From: Synergistaceae bacterium
Lineage (GTDB): Bacteria; Synergistota; Synergistia; Synergistales; Aminobacteriaceae
Assembly: GCA_017427625.1 (NCBI GenBank)
Contig: JAFRSL010000165.1
Coordinates: forward strand, 1-15,375
DNA: 15,375 nucleotides
Direction of reading: 5' to 3'
This document shows positions 9,218-14,865 of this stretch, piece by piece. The notes beneath the pieces are model-generated. The model worked only from the letters and a program-made list of their open reading frames with translations. It had not been told where the DNA came from and searched no databases. Position 1 is the stretch's first letter. Every line of letters begins with the position of its first letter. Position numbers and translations under genes: made by a program.

Positions 9218-9587
9218 CGCCGTTCACCCCCTGCCTATAATCCATTCCGAAACCCAAGCTGTCGAGTATTGCGTCAATCTTCGCCCCGTATGCACTGCTC
9301 GTGTCAATCACAAACTCAAGCGCTGGTATCCTCCTCATCTTCACTGACTGGCCGAGAAGTCCACGTACTGCTCCCTTGATTTCGTTCAGGTCCTTCAAGA
9401 TTCCAGGACATTTTCGGGCTTCTAGTGCCGTGAAATAGACTTTTGCTCGCTCAAGGTCCTTCGTGCATTCAACGCCGGTTATTATGATGGTCTTGACGCT
9501 CTCCTTCTTTATGCGGCTCTCGAATATCAACGCTAACTCTCGCTGCAACTCCTTGTTGATTCGAGACATCCTGAGATTCGTACTCAC
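9180..9587 (-). CDS. rbfA: 30S ribosome-binding factor A
   Basis: Small KH-like factor that binds the immature 30S subunit near the 16S 5' helix and helps its final maturation. Recognised from RMSRINKELQRELALIF near the N-terminus, the T-I-I-I-TGVE strand, LERAKVYFTA, and KMRRIPALEFVIDTSS near the end of the fold. The GTG at 9587 overlaps the infB stop (GTGA) and has AGAGGAG 11 nt upstream, so it is preferred over an internal ATG at 9569 that has no good SD. The C-terminus is an acidic tail (DDDEGIGDAEG) that overlaps the nrnA start region. Confidence 0.94.
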   Translation of the reverse strand: MSTNLRMSRINKELQRELALIFESRIKKESVKTIIITGVECTKDLERAKVYFTALEARKCPGILKDLNEIKGAVRGLLGQSVKMRRIPALEFVIDTSSAYGAKIDAILDSLGFGMDYRQGVNGDDDEGIGDAEGI

Positions 9588-11503
9588 AGCGTTCTCTTCT
9601 CCTCTATTACTTCGTAGACCTCAAGAATATCCCCTTCCCTGAAATCTTGGAAGCCCTCTAGCGATATTCCACAGTCGTTTCCGGCCCTGAGCTCTTTTGC
9701 CTCGTCCTTCTCATGACGTAGTGAGGCTATCTTTCCGTCCCAGATTACTACACCGTCGCGGATTACTCTGACCTTCGCAGTCCTCTTAACGACACCCTTC
9801 GTAACATGTGAACCCGCTATAATCCCAACCTTTGGAACTCGGAACAGCTTCCTAACCTCAACCTCACCTAACGTATCCTCACGCAGCACGGGCTTCAGCA
9901 ATCCTGCCATTGCTGCCTTCACATCGTCCATAACGTCATAGATTACGCTGTAGATTCGTATTTCGACACCGTTAAGATCCGCTACACGTTTTGCGTTGCC
10001 ATCAGGCCTTACGTTAAAGCCAACGATTACCGCGTTCGATGCTGAGGCCAACATTACATCGCTCTCCGCTATCCTTCCTACTCCTCGATGAACGATCGAC
10101 ACTCCGACCTCGTTCGTAGCAAGTTTCTCCAGTGATGCACATAATGCCTCCAATGAACCCTGAACATCACACTTCACCACGAGATTCAGGTGCGGAAGCT
10201 GGCCTTCCTCAAGATTGGAATACAGGTCCTCGAATGATGCCTTCTTGATTTCTGCGTTTGCATCCCTTTCGGCTGACCTTATCGCCGCGATTGCATCCCT
10301 TGCCTCACGTTCGGTCTTCACAACTTTGAATGTCTCGCCGGGATTTGGTACTCCGTCAAGCCCTAGAATTTCAACGGGGGTGCTTGGACCTGCCTTCTTG
10401 AGACCTTTCCCAGCCCAGTCAAACAACGCTCGCGTCTTTCCCCACGTCGAATTGAAGAGTACGATGTCGCCGGATTTGAGTGTTCCGTCCTTAACGATTA
10501 CTGTTGCAACAGGGCCTTTGCCTTTGTCCAGACGTGCCTCAATTACAACTCCCTCAGGGTTAGCGTCAGGGTTGCCCTTGAGTTCCTGCATCTCTGCCTC
10601 AAGCAAAACTCGCTCCAAGAGGTCAGGAACACCAATTCCCTGCTTCGCCGAGATTTCAACTGCTCCAACCTCTCCGCCCCAACCTTCGGTGAAAATCCCC
10701 AGTTCGCTCAACTGCTGTCGAACACGATCAGGCTTTGCTCCCTGCTTGTCGATTTTGTTGATTGCGACTACTAGGGGTACTCCGGCGGCCTTAATGTGGT
10801 TGATGGCCTCGCGGGTCTGCGGCATTACCCCATCGTCAGCACCTATCACTAGGATTACGATGTCCGTAACGCTCGCTCCTCTTGCACGCATCTCTGTGAA
10901 CGCCTCATGTCCCGGTGTATCAAGAAACACTATCTGCTTACCGTCCTGAATTACAACGTATGCCCCGATGTGCTGGGTTATTCCTCCGGCTTCATGGGCT
11001 GCTATGCTCGAATGCCGGATGTTGTCGAGTAGCGTCGTCTTGCCATGATCTACATGTCCCATTACCGTGATTATTGGAGGACGTTCGACAAGCTTTTTGC
11101 CACCCTGAGACTTTGCAGGCTGAGGTTGAGGCTGTACAGGTACTGTGGCTTTTGTGGACGGGGGAGTTTGGGGGGGATTATGAGGGTCGCGGTTATGGTG
11201 CTTGTCGTGAGGCTTGATGTCCCTTTCTGGCGGCAATTTGTCGTCCGTTGATTCCCTCTTCTCGGCACGTTCAGGGGACTTTGACGGCTCGCTTCCGTGC
11301 TGATTCTTCTCCTGAGACTTCGACGCGCTTGCTTCGGCAAGAATATTCTCCACTATCTGTGCCGTATCCTCATCTATCGAGCTTGAATGAGACTTCACAG
11401 GTATATCAAGCTGCTGCAATACGGCTAGTAATTCCTTGTTCGACTTCTTGAGCTTTCTCGCTAGGTCGTAAATCCTTATCTTGTTATTACTCGGTGTATT
11501 CAA
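9584..11503 (-). CDS. infB: Translation initiation factor IF-2
   Basis: GTPase that delivers initiator fMet-tRNA to the 30S subunit and promotes subunit joining. An IF2 N-terminal domain (residues 1-52, KIRIYDLARKLKKSNKELL) is followed by a low-complexity Lys/Pro/Gln/His linker (about 60-138), then the G domain: G1 GHVDHGKT (149-156), GGIT (173-176), G3 DTPGH (195-199), G4 NKID (249-252), G5 SAK (285-287). Domains II-IV follow, with KCDVQGSLEAL and the C-terminal initiator-tRNA-binding domain. At 639 residues it is at the short end of the family, with the linker as the compressed part. The start is TTG with AAAGGGGAA about 9 nt upstream; no ATG or GTG fits better. It follows ylxR after an 81-base gap that holds two hairpins and repeat-like sequence. 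Confidence 0.97.
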   Translation of the reverse strand: MNTPSNNKIRIYDLARKLKKSNKELLAVLQQLDIPVKSHSSSIDEDTAQIVENILAEASASKSQEKNQHGSEPSKSPERAEKRESTDDKLPPERDIKPHDKHHNRDPHNPPQTPPSTKATVPVQPQPQPAKSQGGKKLVERPPIITVMGHVDHGKTTLLDNIRHSSIAAHEAGGITQHIGAYVVIQDGKQIVFLDTPGHEAFTEMRARGASVTDIVILVIGADDGVMPQTREAINHIKAAGVPLVVAINKIDKQGAKPDRVRQQLSELGIFTEGWGGEVGAVEISAKQGIGVPDLLERVLLEAEMQELKGNPDANPEGVVIEARLDKGKGPVATVIVKDGTLKSGDIVLFNSTWGKTRALFDWAGKGLKKAGPSTPVEILGLDGVPNPGETFKVVKTEREARDAIAAIRSAERDANAEIKKASFEDLYSNLEEGQLPHLNLVVKCDVQGSLEALCASLEKLATNEVGVSIVHRGVGRIAESDVMLASASNAVIVGFNVRPDGNAKRVADLNGVEIRIYSVIYDVMDDVKAAMAGLLKPVLREDTLGEVEVRKLFRVPKVGIIAGSHVTKGVVKRTAKVRVIRDGVVIWDGKIASLRHEKDEAKELRAGNDCGISLEGFQDFREGDILEVYEVIEEKRTL

Positions 11504-11575: not shown

Positions 11576-11610
11576 GTCGCTCTCTCACGTGAGTGGGCGT
11601 GGATTGAAAG
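11576..11610 (+). repeat. Solitary CRISPR-repeat-like sequence (type I-C-like)
   Basis: Begins GTCGCTCTCTCACGTGAG and ends GGGCGTGGATTGAAAG: 35 bases, with an internal perfect palindrome CTCACGTGAG (11584-11593). Type I-C repeats have 5' GTCGC, a central GC-rich palindrome and 3' GCGTGGATTGAAAC/T in about 32-33 bases. The ylxR stop codon (11585-11587) and about its last nine codons fall inside it. There is no adjacent array and no cas gene in the window. Confidence 0.45.
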
Positions 11611-12157
11611 AAATTGCGAAACCTGAACTTAGGGGCAGACCAACTATTTGAACTCCGCCCCTGCTCCCTATTACTTCACTTAGCTCCGAAATATTCATAT
11701 CCAGCGCGATGTGCTCGTACCTCTCTGCAAATTCCCTCACGTTCTCTGAACAATCAGAAGCCGTCATCACCAACACTTTCCTTTTCTCACGCTCAATATT
11801 ATCCATACCAATGAGCAATGTCCCAGACTTCCGTGAAAGTCCCAAAATCGAACGCAGCTTCAAGCCCATTACCATCCCCATATTCCCGGCATATTCCGTC
11901 AGTTCGTCCCAAAATTCAGCATCAGTCATTGCACCGATTGAATGTGCTAGCCTCCCTGACTTACGCGCCTTCTCGATACATTCCGCATCTGGACAGATAT
12001 ACGTTCCGCGTCCGGGCAGCTTCTTGGACTTGTCGATTACCGCATGACCGTCGGGACTTCTCACGATTCGGATCAGTGCGTCCTTGTCATACTTCACTCG
12101 GCATATGCTACAGCTCCTCTGCGGGCTGCGTTTGCTCTGGCTCTTCAAATACGTCAT
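11585..12157 (-). CDS. ylxR: YlxR (DUF448) RNA-binding domain fused to an L7Ae-like domain
   Basis: A 190-residue two-domain protein. Residues 1-75 are YlxR: Cys16 and Cys19 (CSIC), the K-D-A-LIRIV strand, LPGRGTYIC (47-55) and a last Cys at 60. Residues about 95-178 resemble the L7Ae/YlxQ kink-turn-binding fold (GLSRKSGTLLIGMDN, then KVLVMTASDCSENV). In Bacillus the equivalents, ylxR and ylxQ, are separate genes in this same nusA-infB position, so this is a fusion of neighbours. Exact function is not settled in the family; an RNA-binding or regulatory role is likely. I chose the ATG at 12157 (AAGGA 9-10 nt upstream) over a TTG at 12160. It overlaps the end of nusA by 50 bases. The C-terminal residues ISFNPRPLT are read through a CRISPR-repeat-like sequence. 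Confidence 0.9.
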   Translation of the reverse strand: MTYLKSQSKRSPQRSCSICRVKYDKDALIRIVRSPDGHAVIDKSKKLPGRGTYICPDAECIEKARKSGRLAHSIGAMTDAEFWDELTEYAGNMGMVMGLKLRSILGLSRKSGTLLIGMDNIEREKRKVLVMTASDCSENVREFAERYEHIALDMNISELSEVIGSRGGVQIVGLPLSSGFAISFNPRPLT

Positions 12158-13235
12158 CAAATATATCCTTCAATGTCGGCATCTTATCCGGTTCAAGCGT
12201 CTCAATGTTCAGCTTCCAACCCGTCAACTTCGCCGCCAATCTCACATTCTGCCCGCCCTTACCGATTGCAAGCGACAACTGGTCAGGGTAAACGTAGGCT
12301 ATCGCTTCCTTCTCACGGTCTAAGACTGGCTCCACCTTCACTATCTGAGCCGGCGATAACGCGTTCTTTATGTACGTCAATGGGTCGGAACTGTAGGCTA
12401 CAATATCTATCTTCTCGTTCCTAAGGGCTGCACTCACTGCCTTGATTCTTGCTCCGCCATTCCCTACGCATGAACCTACTGGGTCAACATCCGGGTCTAG
12501 CGTGATTAGTGAGACTTTTGCCCGTAATCCTCCGTCCCTCACGATGTTCTTTATCTCGATTATTCCCTCTTTGATTTCGGGGATCTCTACCTCAAGAAGC
12601 CTCCTCAACAATCCTGGATGAGTCCTTGAGACTACGATCCTTGCTCCGCGAAAATTATTCTTCACATCGAGGACATAGAACTTCATCACTGAGCCGGGTA
12701 CATACTTCTCACCCATGATACGCTCTCGCATTGGAAGCGTCGCATCGGTCTTGTCGTTCAGGTGGATTATTATCTGGCTTCCGTCCATCTTGAAGACTGT
12801 TCCGTTCACCATGTCCCCAACTTTGTCCGCAAAAACACTGTAAACTATCTTGCGCTCCTCGTCCCTTAAACGCTGCGAGATTATCTGCCTTGTTGTCTGG
12901 GCCGCTATCCTTCCGAAATCGCCGGGGTTCTTCTCGATCTTTAATATGCTCCCTAACTGCGCTGTAGGGTCTATCGCCAAAGCATCACTGAGCGAGATCT
13001 CTCGGTCTGGATTCGTCGGTGCCTCTACTACTTTCCTGAGCTCACTGATGGTAATATCACCGGTGTCATGGTTGATCTTGATTTCCGTCGTCCGGTCAAC
13101 TGAATAGGGGTGATAACGACGGTTATATGCCGAGAGCAACGCCGCTTCGATCGCAGAGGTTACTACGCTCATATCAAGACCTCGCTCCTCTGCTACTGTG
13201 TCCAGCGCTTCTATAAATTCACGTCCGAGACGCAT
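12108..13235 (-). CDS. nusA: Transcription termination/antitermination factor NusA
   Basis: Binds RNA polymerase near the RNA exit channel and modulates pausing, intrinsic termination and antitermination. The 375 residues cover the N-terminal polymerase-binding domain (1-130), S1 domain (about 135-205, KVGDMVNGTVFKMDGSQI), KH1 (PVGSCVGNGGARIKAV, 252-267) and KH2 (AIGKGGQNVRLAAKLTG, 323-339). It ends in a short acidic tail (DIFDDVFEEPEQ), with none of the extra acidic repeats of the proteobacterial form. The ATG overlaps the rimP stop as TAATG, a typical re-initiation junction. The operon leader upstream contains a candidate attenuator, which NusA itself could sense. Confidence 0.97.
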   Translation of the reverse strand: MRLGREFIEALDTVAEERGLDMSVVTSAIEAALLSAYNRRYHPYSVDRTTEIKINHDTGDITISELRKVVEAPTNPDREISLSDALAIDPTAQLGSILKIEKNPGDFGRIAAQTTRQIISQRLRDEERKIVYSVFADKVGDMVNGTVFKMDGSQIIIHLNDKTDATLPMRERIMGEKYVPGSVMKFYVLDVKNNFRGARIVVSRTHPGLLRRLLEVEIPEIKEGIIEIKNIVRDGGLRAKVSLITLDPDVDPVGSCVGNGGARIKAVSAALRNEKIDIVAYSSDPLTYIKNALSPAQIVKVEPVLDREKEAIAYVYPDQLSLAIGKGGQNVRLAAKLTGWKLNIETLEPDKMPTLKDIFDDVFEEPEQTQPAEEL

Positions 13236-13732
13236 TATTTCTTCTCCCTTCTCTTCTTTCTTCTTTTCTCATCTTCAAACCTGTATACTAGATTGCCTCC
13301 TCGTATCGCTTCGTATGGTAAATCGTATTCCTTGCCTTCACTGAGGATTGTTATGGTGCCGCCGATGGCCTTCTGGATTATTCCCGTGAAGGTCTTTCGC
13401 CCGTCAATCAGTTTCGACAGTCTAACCCTCGCTTCACGTCCCTCAAACCTCGCGTAATCCTCAAGCTTGTACAGCGGCCTCTCAATTCCCGGCGAACTAA
13501 CCTCAAGGTAATAACGTCCCTTGTCCAAGCCTGGAATTTCCGGCACAGTGTCGAGATAGCTGTTGATGTGCCCTGAGACTAGCTCGCAATCTCCGGCGTT
13601 TATACCTCCCAATGTGTCGATTAGGACTTGGAGCTTCAAACGCCCGAACTCGCTGCGTATTCCTGCGTGCACACACTCATAACCTAGTCCCGTAACGATG
13701 CCTTCTATGTGATGCAAAAATTCTTCGTTCAT
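13235..13732 (-). CDS. rimP: Ribosome maturation factor RimP
   Basis: Helps late assembly of the 30S subunit. The 165 residues show the family marks: GYECVHAGI near the N-terminus, LKLQVLIDTLGGI, the D-C-E-L-V-S helix, and the strongly conserved YYLEVSSPGIERPLYKLEDYARFEG (78-102). The C-terminal SH3-like part ends in a run of Lys/Arg/Glu. The SD GGGAG lies 5 nt before the ATG and starts only a few bases after the U-tract of an intrinsic terminator, so transcription must pass that terminator to express the operon. First gene of the rimP-nusA-ylxR-infB-rbfA cluster. Confidence 0.95.
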   Translation of the reverse strand: MNEEFLHHIEGIVTGLGYECVHAGIRSEFGRLKLQVLIDTLGGINAGDCELVSGHINSYLDTVPEIPGLDKGRYYLEVSSPGIERPLYKLEDYARFEGREARVRLSKLIDGRKTFTGIIQKAIGGTITILSEGKEYDLPYEAIRGGNLVYRFEDEKRRKKRREKK

Positions 13733-13751
13733 AAATACTCCCTTTTACAAC

Positions 13752-13782
13752 AAAAAAGGAGCGGGGAATTACCCAACTCCTT
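13752..13782 (-). terminator. Intrinsic terminator in the rimP leader (candidate attenuator)
   Basis: On the minus strand AAGGAG (13782-13777) pairs with CTCCTT (13761-13756), with an inner GGG/CCC stem around the loop TAATT, followed by six U (13757-13752). The last U is 19 nt before the rimP ATG, leaving no room for a promoter between them. It therefore acts within the rimP operon leader and also catches readthrough from the upstream transporter gene. Confidence 0.8.
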
Positions 13783-13797
13783 CCACAATAATATGCG

Positions 13798-13818
13798 TTA
13801 CAATCCACGCAAGAGCAT
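13798..13818 (-). CDS. Candidate leader peptide (six codons) upstream of rimP
   Basis: ATG CTC TTG CGT GGA TTG TAA encodes MLLRGL. AGGAG (13828-13824) lies 5 nt before the ATG, a near-ideal ribosome binding site. The ATG lies in the loop of an 8-bp hairpin whose 5' arm is the SD and whose 3' arm is codons 2-4. The ORF lies between a good promoter and an intrinsic terminator, as in known attenuation leaders. An ORF this short could be chance; the SD and placement are what support it. Confidence 0.4.
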   Translation of the reverse strand: MLLRGL

Positions 13819-13831
13819 TTCAACTCCTGCG
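13808..13831 (-). promoter_or_regulatory. Leader hairpin sequestering the leader-ORF ribosome binding site
   Basis: Minus-strand CGCAGGAG pairs with CUCUUGCG (seven Watson-Crick pairs and one G-U) around the loop UUGAAAUG. The SD is in the 5' arm and the start codon in the loop. The GGAGUUG of this element is repeated in the 5' arm of the downstream terminator, so the two could compete for CUCCUU. Confidence 0.5.
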
Positions 13832-13832
13832 A

Positions 13833-13857
13833 CAATTCTCACAATCACGTGAAATTG
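13833..13857 (-). promoter_or_regulatory. 5'-terminal hairpin of the rimP leader RNA
   Basis: Minus-strand CAAUUUCAC pairs with GUGA-G-AAUUG (nine pairs with one bulged G) around the loop GUGAUU. It would start within a base or two of the predicted transcription start, so it may protect the 5' end or take part in leader folding. It has no U-tract and is not a terminator. Confidence 0.45.
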
Positions 13858-13862
13858 CTTGT

Positions 13863-13890
13863 ATTATATCGTAAAAATTTTATGTTGCAA
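13863..13890 (-). promoter_or_regulatory. Promoter of the rimP-nusA-infB operon
   Basis: Minus-strand TTGCAA (13890-13885), a 16-bp AT-rich spacer, and a perfect TATAAT (13868-13863). Transcription would start near 13856, giving a leader of about 124 nt before rimP. It lies just downstream of the transporter stop codon. Confidence 0.75.
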
Positions 13891-13904: not shown

Positions 13905-14855
13905 TCACTCGCTCACGACGTCACCATTCCAACGCCTGTATATACTCGCAAGCAATGCACCAGAGATATTATGCCAGACACTGAACAGTGCACCGGGTAC
14001 TGTGGCCATTGCGAGATTTGGGAACGTTGAAGCAGCTAGGCTCGTCGCTAGTCCGGAGTTCTGCATTCCAACCTCGATTGAGATTGCCTTTACACGCGCT
14101 GTATCAAGACCGAGTATCTTCCCGAGAATGAAGCCGCATAGATAGCCAAGAATGTTGTGAAGGATCACTACCGCGAAGACAAGCCACCCTGTCGACAAGA
14201 TTCGCTCCGAATTGTGCGAGACTACACATGCTACGATTAGGCATATCGCTGTTACGCTCACGGCAGGAAGAATATCGGAAAGCGTCTCCGTGATTTTCGG
14301 GAAAAGCTTGTTGATTGCGAAGCCCAAAACTATCGGGATTATCACTACCTGAACGATCGAGATGAACATTGCTACAACGTCAACGCTTATCGTCGCACGA
14401 AGAATCAGGTACGTTATCGCCGGTGTCAGGAACGGTGCAAGAAGCGTGTTCACACTCGTCATTCCAACGCTCAATGCAACATCACCGCGTGAAAGGTACG
14501 TTATCACATTGCTCGATGTTCCGCCTGGACATGTCCCGACAAGTACAACCCCCGCCATCAACGCAGTGTCAAGACCGAAGACGATGCTCAATCCCCACGC
14601 CAATAACGGCATTATCGTGAACTGTGCCACTGTACCGAGAAGAACATACTTCGGGTGTGTGAAGACTGGAATGAAGTCCCTTATGCTGAGGGTCAGACCC
14701 ATTCCGAACATTACGAGCATTAACAGCGGGTTAATCCAGCTCGTCTGGATCCATAGTGATGACGATGGAACGAACAATGACAACAGCGTTACTGCTACAA
14801 CGATTACGGCCATGTAGCGACCGAATATACTGCTTACTTTGCGGAGAAACTCCAT
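13905..14855 (-). CDS. Bile acid:sodium symporter (BASS) family transporter
   Basis: A 316-residue polytopic membrane protein with about nine or ten hydrophobic segments along its whole length. The two family signatures are present: GTCPGGTSSNVITYLSRGDVALSVGMTS (about 107-134), the crossed-helix region that binds sodium, and EVGMQNSGLATSLA (261-274). Bacterial members (ASBT_NM, YocS, PanS groups) move organic acids such as bile acids or pantothenate precursors with sodium; the substrate here cannot be told. I chose the ATG at 14855 because GGAAGGTGA lies just upstream; the GTG at 14864 is inside that SD. It has no functional link to its neighbours and is divergent from the TerD-type gene. Confidence 0.92.
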   Translation of the reverse strand: MEFLRKVSSIFGRYMAVIVVAVTLLSLFVPSSSLWIQTSWINPLLMLVMFGMGLTLSIRDFIPVFTHPKYVLLGTVAQFTIMPLLAWGLSIVFGLDTALMAGVVLVGTCPGGTSSNVITYLSRGDVALSVGMTSVNTLLAPFLTPAITYLILRATISVDVVAMFISIVQVVIIPIVLGFAINKLFPKITETLSDILPAVSVTAICLIVACVVSHNSERILSTGWLVFAVVILHNILGYLCGFILGKILGLDTARVKAISIEVGMQNSGLATSLAASTFPNLAMATVPGALFSVWHNISGALLASIYRRWNGDVVSE

Positions 14856-14865
14856 ACTAATCACC

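Follow-up and report, generated by a model that had tools for sequence, protein, structure and literature searches.

The question raised by this locus is whether a terminator in the leader of rimP-nusA-ylxR-infB-rbfA attenuates transcription of this operon and, if so, which factor acts on it. The window, i.e., the whole stretch of 15,375 nt analyzed here, is a contig of a 1.9-Mb, 81% complete assembly of a gut bacterium of the Synergistaceae (labelled G000); the nearest named NusA records are from Synergistaceae, Synergistales and Fretibacterium-labelled MAGs, many of goat and red deer (records of the genome itself were possibly excluded). On the minus strand, a promoter, a leader and a terminator are followed, in this order, by the five genes. 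The first gene, rimP (13235..13732, with its ATG at 13732), matched RimP_N over the cut-off and the NCBIfam RimP models below their curated cut-offs, while nusA (12108..13235) and infB, encoding IF-2 (9584..11503), matched NCBIfam TIGR01953 and TIGR00487, respectively, over the cut-offs. As a side observation, the RnpM-like gene ylxR (11585-12160, minus strand, 191 aa) matches RnpM at residues 12-90 and, below the cut-off, a longer RNA-binding model that covers residues 7-140; a second RNA-binding domain is perhaps fused to the RnpM part.

We compared the sequences ahead of rimP among 43 genomes of the window's genus, 34 from other genera in the family and 22 from other families in the order, i.e., 100 rimP loci from 99 genomes of one order. 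The other families contributed 23 loci, as one genome (G052) gave two, the second of which was excluded from the tree and from the genome counts. In the family search, G145 and G147 gave no rimP match, and G135 (in which rimP is cut by the contig start) and G154 were not included; in the search among relatives, G042 and G058 gave no match.

The first-pass annotation of this DNA had proposed a strong promoter, TTGCAA-16-TATAAT. This sigma-70-type sequence is present (13863..13890, minus strand) and its position is conserved; its match to consensus, on the other hand, is not beyond chance when taken alone, as four promoter-like sites were found in the region against 2.8 expected. The -10 position reads TATAAT in 41 and TATACT in 2 of the 43 genus leaders (the choice in G064 is doubtful), and a -35 with at least four of six matches was found in 36 of them (best of six spacings, without a control). 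Overall, a -10 was assigned in all 43 genus genomes, in 33 of the 34 genomes from other genera of the family and in 18 of the 22 from other families. As AATTTCA is conserved behind the -10, the RNA would start at the A at 13856, 7 nt after the -10, and would measure approx. 105 nt to the end of the U-tract (13752..13856, minus strand). In most relatives, which carry no inserted unit (see below), the predicted leader RNA is roughly 50-60 nt long; the distance from the -10 to the terminator is 82 nt in the window versus 21 to 37 nt in the other 42 genus leaders.

The terminator reads GGAGTTGGGTAATTCCCCGCTCC plus TTTTTT (13780..13752, minus strand). Its hairpin, GGAGUUGGGUAAUUCCCCGCUCC (13758..13780), which is defined by fold and conservation, has a mid-stem U-G wobble and a U-C mismatch, and its U-tract (13752..13757), which is read from the letters, ends 19 nt before the rimP ATG. 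The fold (z = -4.2) was matched by none of 200 shuffles and is thus beyond chance, which bears out the intrinsic terminator proposed at this place. A simple terminator scan of the region did not pick out the rimP terminator. The pattern of the window's terminator occurs at a single place in the assembly. A search of Rfam release 15 gave nothing above the gathering thresholds (best, STnc390 with 24.6 of 50 bits and ncr952 with 20.9 of 100 bits).

We looked for close relatives that had lost the terminator, but a hairpin with a T-rich tail was found upstream of rimP at all 100 loci (43/43 in the genus and 57/57 elsewhere); a single regular expression captured 98 of them, and those in G008 and G078 were identified by eye. 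Where measured, the hairpin lies 22 to 217 nt from the aligned rimP start. These data support the first-pass annotation in its reading of the leader as an attenuator before rimP-nusA-infB, and the promoter-terminator-rimP order supports its corollary that transcripts from this promoter must cross the terminator. The ORF closest upstream varies within the genus, with several unrelated groups and both orientations represented (by crude ORF calls), which suggests that the terminator goes with rimP and not with any one upstream gene.

Sequence conservation in the hairpin extends beyond the genus. A GGG..CCC stem core is present in the window and in 55 of 56 genomes outside the genus; 41 of the 43 genus leaders have a GGG..CCC or CCT core, the others having GGA..UCC (G016) and GG..CC (G008). 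Of 149 genomes of the phylum, 84 contain the palindrome GAGTGGG(2-10)CCCACTC, with a single site per genome except in G139 and G141 (among the matches listed, with rimP confirmed at part of the sites); it was found in none of 39 genomes of the window's genus, which carries the mispaired form. Outside the phylum, 24 nusA loci were examined, 16 of which gave a RimP match; the 5'-arm word GAGUGGG was observed at eight of the 24 (L073, L075, L083, L084, L085, L087, L089 and L090, from Acholeplasmatales-type, Bacillota and uncultured bacteria), in hairpins ending 8 to 86 nt before the RimP match. This suggests that GAGUGGG is a rimP-leader word common to several phyla.

We consider it probable that this region is a rimP-leader transcription attenuator ahead of rimP-nusA-ylxR-infB-rbfA, with NusA as the likeliest effector. 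The promoter, the terminator and their conservation can be read directly from the sequences, as can the stem interruption and the pairing of the 5' hairpin described below; termination and its efficiency, the folding order and the role of NusA are what we infer from them. RNA polymerase would start near 13856, part of the polymerases would stop at the terminator and the rest would read through into the operon. By analogy with the published systems discussed below, NusA probably stimulates termination here, such that high NusA levels would lower expression of its own operon.

The foremost alternative, which we regard as unlikely but as deserving serious attention, is a constitutive partial terminator that would hold the number of transcripts per promoter firing at a fixed ratio and insulate the operon from upstream read-through, with no sensing involved. 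A same-strand ORF does lie just upstream in some genus genomes, no conserved antiterminator was found, and the unbroken stems at all 57 loci outside the genus might act without a factor. However, the hairpin persists even where the closest ORF upstream runs in the opposite direction, and GAGUGGG is retained beyond the needs of pairing at nearly all loci outside the genus as well as at 8 of the 24 outside the phylum; conservation of this kind suggests a reader.

Among the loci compared, weakness of the stem is peculiar to the window's genus. The first-pass annotation had described the window's terminator stem as interrupted, and this description extends to 39 of the 43 genus species, whereas at the 57 loci outside the genus the same position is occupied by a Watson-Crick pair (49 loci) or a U-G wobble (8 loci). 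Mid-stem states in the genus comprise U.U, C.U, A.G, U.C, C.C, a bulge, U-G plus a mismatch or bulge, and plain U-G; the stem is continuous via U-G in four species (G010, G018, G031 and G064), and an uninterrupted Watson-Crick stem was seen in none of the 43, although G024 can form an A-U pair beside a bulged C. Mean core stem energies were -10.65 kcal/mol in the genus, -14.01 kcal/mol in other genera of the family and -13.15 kcal/mol in other families, i.e., the core stems of the genus are approx. 3 kcal/mol weaker. The weak stem is thus a fact of sequence.

Whether the weak stem is also under selection was addressed on a RimP tree. Over the 41-member core clade of the genus (G018 and G064, which fall outside this core, were omitted from the count of changes and retained among the 43), the mid-stem state needs 14 to 15 changes (13 to 16 over 100 sampled bootstrap trees). 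The chance of observing no Watson-Crick restoration is 0.002 to 0.005 if one third of changes are restoring and 0.013 to 0.024 if one quarter are; for at most one restoration (i.e., counting G024) the values are 0.02 to 0.04 and 0.08 to 0.13, respectively. As the model is post hoc, ignores insertions and uses the tree of one short protein, these values are suggestive only of selection for a weak stem. A mid-stem mispair or bulge would weaken the stem and make termination lean more on a factor, which is how the first-pass annotation had read the interruption. This may apply to the genus; in the other genera the stem is unbroken at the same place, and stem weakness is thus not needed for the general role of the leader.

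The hairpin also offers a possible target for the ribosome. On this second alternative, which we consider improbable, a ribosome-assembly signal (RimP, IF-2, RbfA or free 30S) instead of NusA acts on the leader; in one variant, a 30S subunit on the Shine-Dalgarno-like AGGAG in the 5' arm of the terminator could hold it open. The operon families include proteins that act on the 30S subunit, and 42 of the 43 genus leaders have AGGAG in this arm (AAGGAG in 39), with no start codon just after it. Feedback by RimP is also mentioned as a hypothesis by Naville & Gautheret (PMC2965389). At most loci outside the genus, however, the arm reads AGAGUGGG, a poorer Shine-Dalgarno sequence. A point against the attenuator reading is that, in the minimum-energy fold of the window, the terminator 3' arm and U-tract are predicted to pair with the rimP Shine-Dalgarno sequence AAAAGGGAG (pairing region 13733-13770, minus strand); the probability of this pairing was 0.84 against 0.16 in the window's full leader and did not exceed 0.05 in the other 42 genus leaders, and sequestration of the Shine-Dalgarno sequence was thus rejected as a conserved device.

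Ahead of the terminator, the genus has a further hairpin. Most genus leaders begin with AAUUUCA and form a hairpin of 6 to 9 bp that directly abuts the terminator; in the window, comparison of the genus leaders places its 5' arm UUUCAC at 13849..13854 and its 3' arm GUGGAA at 13781..13786 (minus strand), and the A's of the 3' arm can, by fold, alternatively pair with the U-tract. The first-pass annotation had noted a 5' hairpin, which is present as letters, but the strong inner hairpin lies in a unit found in 1 of 43 leaders and the conserved structure is the smaller UUUCAC/GUGGAA hairpin that encloses this unit. In an alignment of 42 sequences (A1, from which the window was excluded because of its insert), 91% of the cells of the 5' hairpin were standard pairs and changes on both sides were found at three of seven pairs, the clearest being G-C to A-U in eight sequences. 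Shuffle controls, which treat both helices together, were mixed; the number of paired cells was reached in 0 and the covariation score in 8 of 500 shuffles, while both-sides pair changes were reached in 46 and further pair types in 448 of 500. In addition, sliding the helices by +1 gave more both-sides changes. In leaders from outside the genus, the sequence ahead of the terminator shows no more folding than its shuffles (median z approx. -0.1), and no general 5' hairpin was found across the order.

RNAalifold alone picks the pairing of the A-tract with the U-tract instead of the 5' hairpin, which suggests that the two compete, and most of the pairing predicted for the A-tract in the full-length RNA is with the U-tract. 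An early, co-transcriptional 5' hairpin would form first, initially sequestering the A-tract, which can pair with the U-tract later. A DNA operator in place of the RNA hairpin was also considered and is disfavored, as the arms are not at a fixed distance from each other and both sides of a pair are altered in G008.

The loop of the 5' hairpin of the window contains a 37-nt insert (13797..13833, minus strand), GTCGCAGGAGTTGAAATGCTCTTGCGTGGATTGTAAC, of the form GTCGC..hairpin..GCGTGGATTGTAAC, with ends that resemble type I-C CRISPR repeats (by comparison of the units and of the repeat form in Table 1 of PMC3890593). Among the 43 genus species, the window alone carries such a unit within the rimP leader, and the insert (13833-13797) is, by this comparison, outside the conserved attenuator device. 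It also contains a six-codon ORF (13818..13798, minus strand; M-L-L-R-G-L) with AGGAG five bases before the ATG, which the first-pass annotation had regarded as part of the leader. Attenuation by translation of this ORF as a leader peptide would accord with the AGGAG and with its placement between promoter and terminator. However, the ORF is missing from the other 42 genus leaders, all of which are without the unit, its codons show no telling run of a single amino acid, and its letters come from a dispersed unit of which other copies do not preserve it (both copies in G029 miss the stop there and the copy G000:C60 is without the ATG). The ORF is thus, on the comparison of copies, a by-product of the inserted unit; a leader peptide as a conserved mechanism is refuted, and even for the window we consider it very improbable.

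Similar units (87-89% over 36-43 nt) were found at G000:C60 and twice in G029, seemingly at the same place (by eye). They follow a similar gene, which we take to encode an outer-membrane-protein-like product. The rimP unit fits the pattern GTCGC..palindrome..GCGTGGATTGAAAY with a hairpin and a 3' handle, one base of which is off (TGTAAC for TGAAAC), while its middle and inner hairpin are unlike the array repeats of the same genome. No second exact-pattern match was found beside it, placing it outside a regular array; arrays of such repeats, spaced by approx. 65-68 nt, occur in G029, G006, G012 and at two contig ends of G000. For comparison, PMC3890593 gives the type I-C repeat of B. halodurans as GTCGCACTCTACATGAGTGCGTGGATTGAAAT, in which Cas5d cuts at the base of the hairpin, with an 11-nt handle. 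Beside the G029 array, models for Cas3, Cas5c, Cas8c, Cas7, Cas4 and Cas1 matched over the cut-offs (Cas2 was outside the search).

Lone exact-pattern units with the same ends and mostly self-complementary, differing middles were found in G000 (11 besides the rimP unit), G005, G006, G012, G014, G020 and G022, and G029 has a close pair. With arrays included, a longer pattern occurs in 8 of 43 genus and 10 of 81 family genomes, and its reverse has no matches; a shorter pattern occurs in 7 of 43 genus genomes, with one reversed match. A second CRISPR-repeat-like unit was observed in the window itself, at the ylxR/infB junction (11576-11608), on the plus strand and thus opposite to the rimP-leader unit. 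Separately, some units are part of a longer dispersed repeat, in which TATATCACTGGAGTTT or a similar sequence directly precedes GTCGC..GCGTGGATTGAA (L179-L182 and L184 in G014, L186-L189 in G020); G014 has eight near-identical cores, of which L178, L183 and L185 are without the upstream piece, and the longer repeat is possibly a miniature mobile element. In two distant genus species, the units L183 (G014:C13:8842-8885) and L189 (G020:C28:7829-7872) end 53 and 18 nt, respectively, before near-identical ORFs, the product of which presumably is a class II fructose-bisphosphate aldolase.

The rimP unit may be one of a set of dispersed chromosomal recognition hairpins of Cas5d type in 5' regions, binding or cleavage of which, now or in the recent past, would tie the NusA/IF-2 operon to the state of CRISPR-Cas; such an event at the unit would part the arms of the 5' hairpin and release the A-tract for the U-tract. 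We consider this link improbable. Among the 43 genus genomes, two were found to encode Cas5d (G014 and G029, both unit carriers), so that most unit carriers show none, and the link is weakened further as no Cas5d was found in the window's 81% complete assembly. As units in G014, G020 and some copies in G000 lie inside the longer dispersed repeat, a mobile origin not related to CRISPR is also possible.

Finally, the hairpin might be the terminator of the upstream transporter gene (13905-14864, minus strand), placed before rimP by chance; this gene is on the same strand and ends approx. 40 nt before the -10, but the promoter intervenes and the promoter-terminator-rimP order persists with unrelated upstream ORFs, some on the opposite strand (by crude ORF calls), and we therefore reject this reading.

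Overall, the attenuator is of a known kind, as it fits the rimP-leader that Naville & Gautheret described in 2010 (PMC2965389), i.e., an intrinsic terminator before rimP-nusA-infB for which NusA is named as effector. It shares with that motif the gene order, the GGG..CCC arms and the lack of a riboswitch-like aptamer in the description given there. Unlike the published GGGc..gCCC, the flanking c..g is found in none of the 43 genus leaders, and exact GGGC..GCCC in 12 of 56 other genomes; we took the lower-case flanks of the motif as less conserved and hence as non-defining. The genus also differs from the rimP-leader, as there described, in its mid-stem mispair and its added 5' hairpin. The string "Synergist" is absent from the main text of PMC2965389, and, among the matches listed in searches on rimP/nusA attenuation and Synergistetes NusA (which included few subscription journals and left the 2010 supplements aside), there was no description of the attenuator in this phylum. 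The interrupted-stem variant of the genus and the inserted unit likewise appear undescribed in the literature on rimP/nusA attenuation and solitary CRISPR repeats (among the matches listed). The present data widen the range of the rimP-leader attenuator to an order, a hairpin being present at each of the loci examined, and correct the leader-peptide reading. In addition, the uninterrupted, wobble, mismatched and bulged stems from approx. 100 genomes provide a natural series on stem strength versus NusA dependence.

The inserted unit brings to notice a dispersed CRISPR-repeat-like element near chromosomal genes. As a lone hairpin with type I-C ends downstream of a promoter, it resembles the solitary CRISPR repeat units, or RNA anti-CRISPRs, described in PMC10651486. 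The search in that study covered viruses, prophages and plasmids, whereas the rimP unit lies within a core operon of the chromosome; in addition, the inner hairpin of the rimP unit departs from the array repeats of its genome.

With regard to the effector, a 2025 review (PMC12288461) states that NusA of B. subtilis autoregulates by attenuation via its leader. There, as predicted here, a terminator in the 5' leader gates entry into the gene; dependence on NusA is reported for the B. subtilis leader and is proposed here by analogy, and the rimP leader of B. subtilis, at 180 nt (PMC2965389), is longer than the 50-60 nt predicted for most of the genus. For the S. agalactiae operon gbs0413-gbs0418, PMC4448216 describes a short leader RNA and proposes feedback by NusA; as in our genomes, an intrinsic terminator follows soon after the start site and precedes rimP, with 31 nt from start to termination observed by RNA-seq in S. 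agalactiae, whereas the short RNA is a prediction here. Autoregulation by NusA, the leading hypothesis of the first-pass annotation, agrees with what these three sources report and is, by this analogy, the best explanation for the rimP leader of the window and its relatives.
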